DNA from: an uncultured Acidobacteriota bacterium
GTDB lineage: Bacteria; Acidobacteriota; Blastocatellia; Pyrinomonadales; Pyrinomonadaceae
Reading direction: 5' to 3'
Assembly: GCA_902826795.1 (NCBI GenBank)
Contig: CADEGD010000005.1
Location: 1 to 64,000, forward strand
DNA length: 64,000 nucleotides
Shown: positions 2,787 to 5,010 of the stretch, piece by piece
Numbering within the stretch: the stretch's first letter is position 1
Layout of the letters: every line of letters starts with the position of its first letter
Made by a program: the position numbers and the translations under genes
The notes under the pieces: generated by a model
The model's input: the letters and a program-made list of their open reading frames with translations, nothing else
Databases searched by the model: none
What the model was told of the DNA's origin: nothing

Positions 2787-3539
2787 ATGAAACTCATCGT
2801 TCTCGGCTCGGGATCATCAGTCCCGCATCCGACGCGGTCGAGTTCGGGCTACTGGCTGGACACCGCAGGCGGAAGCATTCTGCTAGATTGCTCGGCTTCG
2901 GCGATCCATCGGATAGCTCAGGAAGAATGCGACTGGGCGAATCTGGACGCGATCTGGATCTCGCATTTTCACCTCGATCATTGCGGTGGCCTCGCGCCGT
3001 TTCTGTTCGGAACGAAGTACGCTCCGACTACTCGATCTAGAACAAAGCCGATGCGGATCTTCGGCCCGTCGGGCTTGAAGAACTTGATCGCTGCGTTCGA
3101 TTCGGCCTACGATTACGGCCTGCTCGAACAGCCTTTTCCATGTGAGGTTATCGAGGTCGAGCCGGGGAAAGAATTCAATCTATCCGAAGGCGTAACGGCA
3201 AAAACATTTTCGACTCCACACACCGACGAAAGCTGTGCGATCCGCATCGATGACGTATCAGGCTCGATCGTGTTCTCCGCCGATACGGGCTATTCAACTA
3301 ACCTCGGCGCCTTCGCCCGCGGTGTCGACCTGCTGCTGATCGAGTGTTCGTTTTTCGCAGATAAGCCGGTCGAGATCCATTTGAACCTTGCCGACATAGA
3401 GCAGATCGCCCGCTTTGCGAAGCCAAAGAAGATCGTCCTAACACACCTTTACCCCGAATGGGATGCCCGTCGACCGCCTACCGAGATGGGCGGGATTGAG
3501 GCGGCTCTGGCCTTCGACGGTATGGTACTTTCAACTTAG
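2787..3539 (+). CDS. MBL-fold metallo-hydrolase (RNase Z-like)
   Basis: The 250-residue protein opens with a beta-strand and VLGSGSSVPHP, typical of RNase Z/ElaC-like metallo-beta-lactamases, and has the zinc motif HFHLDH at residues 60-65. Further probable metal ligands lie in STPHTDES, FSADTGYS and LTHLYP. It is shorter than true tRNase Z (about 300 residues) and I see no flexible exosite arm, so it may be an RNase Z-like phosphodiesterase rather than the tRNA 3' processing enzyme. No clear Shine-Dalgarno precedes the ATG, because the leader is occupied by the inverted repeat ending at 2780. Confidence 0.85.
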   Translation: MKLIVLGSGSSVPHPTRSSSGYWLDTAGGSILLDCSASAIHRIAQEECDWANLDAIWISHFHLDHCGGLAPFLFGTKYAPTTRSRTKPMRIFGPSGLKNLIAAFDSAYDYGLLEQPFPCEVIEVEPGKEFNLSEGVTAKTFSTPHTDESCAIRIDDVSGSIVFSADTGYSTNLGAFARGVDLLLIECSFFADKPVEIHLNLADIEQIARFAKPKKIVLTHLYPEWDARRPPTEMGGIEAALAFDGMVLST

Positions 3540-3580
3540 TTGTGAGTACATTGCCTTTGCTGCCGCGGCGTTACCGTCTC

Positions 3581-3604
3581 GGCCCGCTGGCACACACGCG
3601 GGCT
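3581..3604. repeat. GC-rich palindrome in intergenic region
   Basis: GCCCGC (3582-3587) pairs with GCGGGC (3598-3603) around a ten-base loop just after the MBL gene. It has no T-tract, so it is not an obvious intrinsic terminator; it may be a REP-like palindrome. Confidence 0.5.
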
Positions 3605-3644
3605 AACGCAACCGGTCAAACCGCTTGGGCCCGATAGAAAATTC

Positions 3645-3674
3645 TTGACACGTTTGTTGTATTTGTGGGATTCT
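3645..3674 (+). promoter_or_regulatory. Probable sigma-70 promoter of the 3.7-4.0 kb non-coding region
   Basis: A perfect TTGACA lies at 3645-3650, with a weak -10 match GATTCT at 3669-3674 (18-base spacing) in an A/T-richer stretch. No coding region follows on this strand before 4006. The next notable element is a boxA-like TCTTTGACAA at 3701-3710. Confidence 0.5.
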
Positions 3675-3698
3675 AGGTTACGGCGAGTTTCCCTCGCT

Positions 3699-3990
3699 GG
3701 TCTTTGACAATTGAAGGATCTTATTAACCGGTAAAGTCCGGCGTCTTAGATCACGTAGTGAACGATTACTTAATGTGGGACATGAGACTGAAACCCTTAA
3801 ATCTTAGATCGTGTTCCAAATGGAACAAAAGTACAGGGGTAAAATGGAACGGAACAAGTCGCTTAAGCTGTCTCGTAAGCACCGTCCATAAGTTGTAGAT
3901 CGTGATTCAAATGAATCAGATCCTGTGTCTTATGCAAATGAAACAGGGCCTGACTTTCAGACTATACGCCCGACAAGTGGAGATGGCCGG
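3699..3990 (+). ncRNA. Candidate structured non-coding RNA / rRNA-type leader
   Basis: The stretch between the MBL gene and the convergent gene at 4007 has no convincing coding frame. It begins with GGTCTTTGACAATTGAA, resembling the boxA antitermination element of rRNA leaders. It then carries three modules in which TAGATC (3747, 3805, 3896) is followed by a small hairpin: TCAC-gta-GTGA, GTTCCA-aa-TGGAAC (3813-3826) and GATTCA-aa-TGAATC (3904-3917). The last two share loop and flank but differ in the stem with both sides changed. No 16S or 23S sequence follows, so it is either an independent RNA or a displaced rRNA leader. The call rests on structure alone. Confidence 0.35.
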
Positions 3991-4006
3991 ACTTACGCTC
4001 AATAGG

Positions 4007-4432
4007 TTAGGAGGTCACGTTTCGCTTCGCCATCGCCATGAGTTCCTCAGGCATCCATTTAGAGAGATTCTTTTCTTCGGCTTCGGCGATGGATTTGCCG
4101 CGGTTTCGCCATTCTTTGGTAGGGTCATCTTCGCGGCCGGATTCTTTCGGATAGTTCTCGACCTGTTCGAGGCTGATGATAATGCCGTGGATCACGTCGT
4201 TCCAATCTTCATTCTGAATGCCGCGGAGCGTGACCGGCAGGCCGGCCGTCCAATCCTCTTCGGGAACGACGTTGTCGTATTCTGGAATCGTCAGATACGC
4301 GGTCTCGGGAAACGGCCTGCCGCTAAACTCACTCAATAGTTGCGGCTTGATCGAATCGACCGGTCCGCTCGGACTCGTTGAACGCAATTCCATTGCGCGC
4401 TTGAAGATATCGGTAACTGTCGGGCTGCTCAT
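4007..4432 (-). CDS. Hypothetical protein
   Basis: I do not recognise this 141-residue protein. It is acidic and probably soluble, has no signal peptide or membrane segment, and is rich in Pro, Glu and Trp, with segments such as EDWTAGLPVTLRG and EDWNDVIHGIIISLEQ followed by a charged C-terminal helix. This frame was preferred over the overlapping plus-strand frame because its composition is that of a normal soluble protein, while the other is Phe/Arg-rich and lacks organisation. Neighbouring genes give no functional hint. Confidence 0.6.
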   Translation of the reverse strand: MSSPTVTDIFKRAMELRSTSPSGPVDSIKPQLLSEFSGRPFPETAYLTIPEYDNVVPEEDWTAGLPVTLRGIQNEDWNDVIHGIIISLEQVENYPKESGREDDPTKEWRNRGKSIAEAEEKNLSKWMPEELMAMAKRNVTS

Positions 4433-4512
4433 GATGACGTTAGACGAAAGGTTAGCATAATTTTCACTTTTCTACAGTGGATAGTGACAAGTTGATAGTA
4501 GATAGTTTCGTT

Positions 4513-5010
4513 ATGAACCGATTTCTTTATCAAACACACTTGATACTTGGTGCGGTCGTTTCTATACCGCTGCTGGCATGGGCATTAAGCGGATTTCTTT
4601 ACGCTCTGCCGAATACGGTCGAGGGCGGAACGGTCGAGAAGATCGATGCGATGCGAGTTAAGGTGACTCCGGCGGAGGCGATGGCGAGGGCTAATGAGCT
4701 CACCGGAAAAACGCTGCCGACAACCGCGCTGACGCTGTTGATGAAAGACGGACGGCCGCAATATCAGTCGATCGGCGGGCTCGGGGCGGATTCGATCTTT
4801 ATCGATGCCGAAACAGGCGAGGCGGCATTCTCAAAACCGCCCACTTTGAAAACACAATTCTTTCGCGAAGCTCACTTTTACTTTTTTGCGGGCGGCTGGC
4901 AAGTAACGCTGCTGCTGATCTTCTCGGCCCTCGCGACCTTGTCGGCACTTACCGGAATCTATCTCAACATCGTTCATTGGGGACGGATTCTGCGAAAGCG
5001 GTCTGAATGA
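4513..5010 (+). CDS. PepSY-domain membrane protein
   Basis: A 165-residue protein starting at the ATG at 4513; an in-frame ATG at 4477 would add 12 hydrophilic residues before the membrane segment and is less likely. It has an N-terminal transmembrane helix (about 5-30), a periplasmic PepSY-like segment with the characteristic FIDAETGEA, and a C-terminal hydrophobic helix before HWGRILRKRSE. It resembles one half of the larger PepSY-associated TM proteins linked to iron or redox systems. The next gene, a thioredoxin-like protein, overlaps or closely follows, suggesting a shared redox or envelope role. Confidence 0.7.
   Translation: MNRFLYQTHLILGAVVSIPLLAWALSGFLYALPNTVEGGTVEKIDAMRVKVTPAEAMARANELTGKTLPTTALTLLMKDGRPQYQSIGGLGADSIFIDAETGEAAFSKPPTLKTQFFREAHFYFFAGGWQVTLLLIFSALATLSALTGIYLNIVHWGRILRKRSE

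Follow-up and report, generated by a model that had tools for sequence, protein, structure and literature searches.

A dispersed family of intergenic hairpin modules, mostly behind an rRNA-type promoter-hairpin-boxA leader, in an uncultured Acidobacteriota bacterium

The window analysed here is a 64,000-nt stretch of DNA from an uncultured Acidobacteriota bacterium, whose genome we label G000. Near the start of the window, an intergenic region separates a metallo-beta-lactamase-fold gene, which ends at 3539, from a convergent 141-amino-acid gene on the minus strand (4007–4432) with relatives in 37 of the 60 genomes searched, all taken to belong to the same genus. An open reading frame of 145 amino acids at 3902–4339 lies antisense to this conserved gene and is taken as spurious. 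Between the two genes, positions 3645–3963 form one locus of a dispersed family of intergenic hairpin modules, and all of its parts are read on the plus strand. At its 5′ end stands a putative sigma70-like promoter (3645–3674), found by pattern match and seen as the same block 5′ of other modules, with TTGACA at 3645–3650 and GATTCT at 3669–3674; the second hexamer is weak, and a scan with a strict, generic promoter consensus did not accept this promoter. A 6-bp hairpin (3681–3699) lies directly 5′ of a boxA-like motif, TCTTTGACAATT (3701–3712), and occupies the same place at other loci with different stem sequences. A region that varies between loci (3713–3795) contains the first TAGATC at 3747, GGGAC at 3777–3781 and GAGAC at 3784–3788.

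Two modules complete the locus. Module A (3773–3869), which is also similar to other copies by blastn, matches our covariance model R1 with an E-value of 9.1e-13, and the degenerate module B (3864–3963), delimited in addition by reading the sequence, matches with 3.9e-4; these values are not independent, because both copies belong to the training set of the model. In module A, a pentamer that we call X (GTTCC, 3813–3817) is followed by its complement X' (GGAAC, 3822–3826) and by two further copies of GGAAC, X''' (3846–3850) and X'' (3851–3855). An outer stem pairs CTTAA (3796–3800) with TTAAG (3863–3867). In module B, X is GATTC (3904–3908) and X' is GAATC (3913–3917), the X''' site reads GAAAC (3940–3944), and there is no good X''.

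The original prediction described three TAGATC sites here, each followed by a short hairpin. The sites are present on the plus strand (3747–3752, 3805–3810 and 3896–3901), and the second and third are followed by GTTCCA-AA-TGGAAC (3813–3826) and GATTCA-AA-TGAATC (3904–3917), both preceded by ATCGT as described; the first has only TCAC-GTA-GTGA (3751–3761). TAGATC alone occurs no more often in the window than expected (22 times against 25.2); it is the module that exceeds chance. TAGATC is present in 17 of 38 aligned modules, with TAGAAC, ATGACC and similar sequences in the rest, and is a frequent but not a fixed part of the module. The further pentamer copies X''' and X'', the upstream leader and the genome-wide dispersal had been overlooked.

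This dispersal is evident from simple searches of the genome. Before any model was built, blastn with window positions 3600–4000 returned 20 places, the query and 19 others, the best at 5.9e-15. The motif GTAAGTTGTTGAAAGTT, drawn from these places and with up to two mismatches allowed, occurs at 26 places in the genome and at none in the reversed control. Model R1, built from 38 modules, gave 54 matches at E ≤1, of which the weakest (E 0.65) was dropped. The remaining 53 modules are spread over 35 loci, of which 18 hold a pair and 17 a single module; several loci touch contig ends, and the true number may therefore differ by a few. When matches are grouped by strand, both modules of a locus lie on the same strand at all 18 two-module loci. 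The loci adjoin unrelated genes. At two of them, L023 and L125 (C18:38743 and C4:151430), related ATPase-like genes with 72–84% DNA identity, one of them shortened, end within or next to a module that has no leader. The gene running into the module at L023, which we take from its domain to be AAA-ATPase-like, had raised the idea of a recombinase, which was dropped.

The modules share a common order of parts: outer stem, X, a 4-nt loop, X', an A-rich sequence, X''' and X''. A typical module A reads GTAAGTTGTTGAAAGTT..TGTAAGTCTTAGATCTT-GTTCC-GAAT-GGAGC-AAAA-(8 to 12 nt)-GAAAT-GGAAC-GGAAC-AAACAACTTAC. Each X has three partners, the adjacent X' and then the tandem X''' and X'', which are often identical to one another. 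X occurs as GTTCC, GTTTC, GAGTC or GATTC, and the partners mostly change along with it. B modules use GAGTC or GATTC as X and mostly GACTC as X'', and at other loci an X of GTTTC has GAAAC partners. A protein-coding module or short ORF was rejected since the frame is not kept, the distance from X to X'' being 37, 38, 39 or 40 nt among copies, and no tRNA was found.

Conservation of base pairing, first proposed from the two hairpins of the window, is supported by a 38-row alignment of modules from this genome. The alignment includes both window copies, module B being kept despite its broken X'' pairing, and leaves out module B of L029 and module A of L022 (contig-end cut). X:X' is paired in 97.4% of cells and shows both-sided changes in three of its five pairs, amounting to 34 cells; the 7-bp X:X'' helix is paired in 89.8% and X:X''' in 91.1%. 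For each pairing the covariation score exceeded those of all 500 shuffles, a significance that the shuffles overstate because the module copies are related. The X:X'' test was run jointly with the outer stem GTAAGT:ACTTAC, only 70.2% of whose cells are paired. A longer outer stem, GTAAGTTGTT:AACAACTTAC, was discarded because its covariation did not go beyond shuffles. From the same alignment RNAalifold predicts the X:X' hairpin only, and the folding of single modules is weak (z −0.03 for window module A, −1.1 for module A and +0.3 for module B of L012); if RNA structure matters, it is therefore probably helped by protein or by pairing in trans.

The kinds of mismatch in these stems carry information about the strand. 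When one base of a pair changes, the mismatch is G-T where the strand being read is under constraint and A-C where the constraint is on its complement. X:X' cells comprise 164 Watson-Crick, 21 G-T, 2 A-C and 3 other combinations, X:X''' cells 157, 16, 1 and 16, and X:X'' cells 180, 4, 2 and 4, respectively; the outer stem lacks the asymmetry, with 20 G-T, 14 A-C and 54 others. The excess of G-T over A-C points to the plus strand acting as RNA, or as single-stranded DNA, and few independent changes may underlie the counts. The original prediction had left open an RNA or a protein-binding array, and the RNA is the part that fits better. A DNA binding array for a pentamer-recognising protein would suit the one inverted and three direct pentamer copies of each module. 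It would sit poorly with a pentamer that varies between loci and with wobble pairs that preserve pairing on one strand only, and we consider it highly improbable.

Most loci have, 5′ of the modules, TTGACA followed by a conserved spacer, then a hairpin and TCTTTGA; the distance from the beginning of TTGACA to TCTTTGA is mostly 54–64 nt. This leader pattern was found no more than 340 nt from the first module in 25 of 32 loci examined; the other seven contain no match to the promoter-boxA pattern. The segment between promoter and boxA has a mean folding z of −1.9 across the 25 loci. A genome-wide search for TTGACA-N44..60-TCTTTGA gave 24 matches and none in the reversed control, the 24 having been picked from the list of a looser pattern with 71 matches against 61 in its control; the looser match at the window is C5:3645-3707. 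For 22 of the 24 matches, a module lies on the same strand no more than 300 nt downstream. Of the remaining two, one runs into a contig end inside the start of a module and one has no module. Directly 5′ of TTGACA, a short palindrome like CACGAAATCGTG is found at L012, L013, L015, L018 and L070. In a single case, L009 and L030 are alike from about the expected transcript start onwards, and L030 lacks the promoter.

The leader of the organism's own 16S rRNA has the same order of TTGACA, hairpin and boxA, the last as GATCTTTGAAAA, about 69 nt apart. Promoter, hairpin and boxA at the 25 loci resemble this rRNA operon leader in order and motif, and differ from it in that no rRNA lies downstream. 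The boxA of rRNA binds NusB and NusE (PMC4807359).

A promoter and boxA placed upstream, together with alternative stems that recall an attenuator, could mean that the element is a cis-acting leader or attenuator of the downstream gene. In three genomes (G000, G023 and G006) a leader and array do lie upstream of a gene that we take to be alanine-racemase-like; the other 17 of the 20 loci inspected lack such a leader and array. Against this reading, the gene downstream runs antisense in the window, as it does at many other loci (about 15 of 26 are codirectional by crude ORF calls, two of them corrected by hand), and the downstream genes are unrelated to one another. We judge a cis-acting role very unlikely.

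Comparison with other genomes shows that loci have been gained or lost. The nearest relative with the family, G028, has 84–87% protein identity at the place of the window, and its corresponding intergenic region is 92 nt long and contains no element. Of the 36 other genomes with the conserved 141-amino-acid gene, 29 were inspected in this region, the longest stretches up to about 960 nt, and none of the 29 showed the module; in one inspected genome no lactamase gene was found near the region. R1 found no module in the inspected genomes except elsewhere in G028, and with stricter filters only two of 60 genomes have modules, G000 itself and G028 (15 modules). Six loci are common to the two genomes by their flanks (L022/L071, L030/L075, L018/L076, L020/L077, L011/L079 and L124/L080). 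Since some loci are shared with G028 and the window copy is not, part of the family is old and part of it is in flux.

One of the shared loci captures a change of pentamer. The alignment of L018 with L076 is nearly base for base, with flanks and spacer alike. In one of the two, X is GTTCC with partners GGAAC, GGAGC and GGAAC, and in the other X is GATTC with GACTC as all three partners. This supports a concerted change of all four copies. GATTC and GACTC pair at only four of five positions, which argues mildly against strict pairing. At both loci the 3′ end of the module overlaps the end of a convergent gene, and the TAA of the element is seemingly used as its stop.

The three direct copies have changed identically at L018/L076, X being not fully complementary to them. 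This is what would be expected if matching pentamer sets were maintained by mutation rather than selection, one variant being copied onto the others when templates switch between near-palindromes and when copies undergo gene conversion. The frequent identity of X', X''' and X'' and the weak folding of single modules are compatible with such a process. It leaves unexplained both the wobble asymmetry and a leader hairpin that is conserved with different stems, and long conversion tracts would be expected to carry the flanks as well; we regard it as unlikely.

Gain or loss at the window site, presence in two of 60 genomes and copies beside unrelated genes are features of a selfish, MITE-like miniature repeat. 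Its hairpins would be recognised by a trans-acting enzyme, the promoter and boxA would be passengers, and there would be no host function. The block of modules A and B, which is 93–95% identical at L011, L012 and L032 though the leaders there differ, adds to this possibility. A passenger would not need the tight spacing seen in the leader, some loci are held in common with the sister species, and no transposase was noticed beside copies in the loci read. The only reverse transcriptase of the genome is retron-type (C10:78480-79022, L117), with a long C-terminal part and type XIII and XII as its closest PADLOC models, and no module lies near it. A purely selfish repeat is a real possibility, to which we give clearly less than even weight.

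The same retron bears on a further candidate, that the modules are copies of a retron msr-msd, which was rejected: no module occurs on the contig of the reverse transcriptase or in its 3.5-kb locus, and by eye the modules show no similarity to the local retron region. Nannocystis exedens reportedly has multicopy msDNA-like repeats, and the family resembles these in its many dispersed, structured, RNA-like copies that lack a reverse transcriptase of their own.

Leaders of this type also occur in multiple copies in a few of the 60 genomes: 19 in G003 (control 0), 25 in G013 (control 2), 19 in G017 (control 1) and 15 in G023 (control 7). In most genomes the count is near that of the control. Behind these leaders lie arrays of one pentamer and its complement with flanks unlike those of our genome. 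Many copies in G003 and G013 have two or three GTCCC and two GGGAC, some with GAGAC in place of one; L166 (G003) and L180 (G017) have three GTTCC and two GGAAC, and L165 has one GTCCC and three GGGAC. Fourteen elements of G003, G013 and G017, namely those with one 3′ motif from overlapping sets of 22 and 20 loci, show both-sided changes in four of eight leader-hairpin pairs and two of 17 array pairs, six double-changed pairs in all against 1.5 in shuffles. At a locus common to G003 and G017 (L194/L200), where the flanks are 84–97% identical, the pentamers read by eye are GTCCC with three GGGAC versus GTCCA with three TGGAC; the arrays cannot be aligned base by base. Some leader-like matches occur in G031, and no such array was present in the three loci inspected there. 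A tally of the most frequent 5-mer following boxA in other species proved too crude to be used, as A/T runs dominate it. Near the gene bordering the intergenic region of the window, GTCCC, GTTCC or GTTTC, pentamers of the same class as X, recur every 8–12 nt in two further genomes, six in a row in L093 (G009, minus strand from about 1077) and four in a row in L087 (G019, plus strand from about 1328); none of 100 mononucleotide shuffles gave runs as long.

We could not find a counterpart of the family in Rfam or in the literature searched. Rfam models gave only a chance match (E 4.8) in window positions 3400–4600 and only a tRNA, in L210, among 17 loci from six genomes. No plasmid or phage record is similar to the block of modules A and B. 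Among representatives, one for each GTDB species, the core pattern was found only in a contig corresponding to G028 and in one chance match; its one match in viral contigs, in a 284-kb contig, was unconfirmed by the model, and a match in a Clostridia MAG (L114, E 0.18) was taken as chance.

Two described groups of repeats are alike in some respects. The BOX, RUP and SPRITE repeats of Streptococcus pneumoniae (PMC3049150) are small, interspersed, structured and lineage-restricted, some are transcribed, and they are probably parasitic. The resemblance is in kind only; here most loci have an rRNA-type promoter-hairpin-boxA leader and the stems have changed in matching sets, which sets the family apart from those repeats. 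REPINs, the REP doublets associated with RAYT transposases, are described (PMC3116915) as paired hairpin units, extragenic and dispersed within one genome, properties that the modules share. The modules differ from the inverted doublets described there in being direct at all 18 two-module loci, and no RAYT was noticed beside modules in the loci read.

The features of the family suggest a multi-copy non-coding RNA or a mobile repeat not described so far. We rank an RNA family with an rRNA-type leader as the most likely explanation and the purely selfish repeat second. In the former, which we hold with roughly even confidence, the loci would be lineage-restricted, antiterminated non-coding transcription units that also spread as a repeat. 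Building on the leader layout, the covariation of the stems and the gain or loss of loci, we infer transcription, antitermination, strand exchange and any regulatory role along the following lines. RNA polymerase would initiate at TTGACA, the Nus-type antitermination machinery that serves rRNA would be recruited by boxA and the 5′ hairpin, and one or two modules would be transcribed by read-through. Within the transcript, X would pair first with the adjacent X', which could be exchanged for X''' or X'' to close a larger fold bounded by a stem. Spare pentamer copies would stay free, perhaps for pairing in trans, and the unit or its module block would duplicate into new intergenic sites.

A broader version of this RNA reading, speculative and held only loosely, would extend it to the genus. 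Antiterminated non-coding RNAs would form a genus-wide class with a swappable pentamer code, in which one pentamer (GTTCC, GTTTC, GTCCC, GTCTC, GAGTC, GATTC or GTCCA) and its roughly three partners are rewritten together. The RNA would exchange partners internally or with other family members, and the surrounding sequence would turn over between species.

Dispersed structured repeats are common; one that combines an rRNA-type leader with stems whose bases are replaced in sets at many loci had no parallel in Rfam or the papers searched. If the units are transcribed, a new class of multi-copy RNA would join those known to carry boxA leaders. With dozens of paralogues and different pentamers in several species, the family offers a natural experiment for setting pairing against copy homogenisation and mobility.
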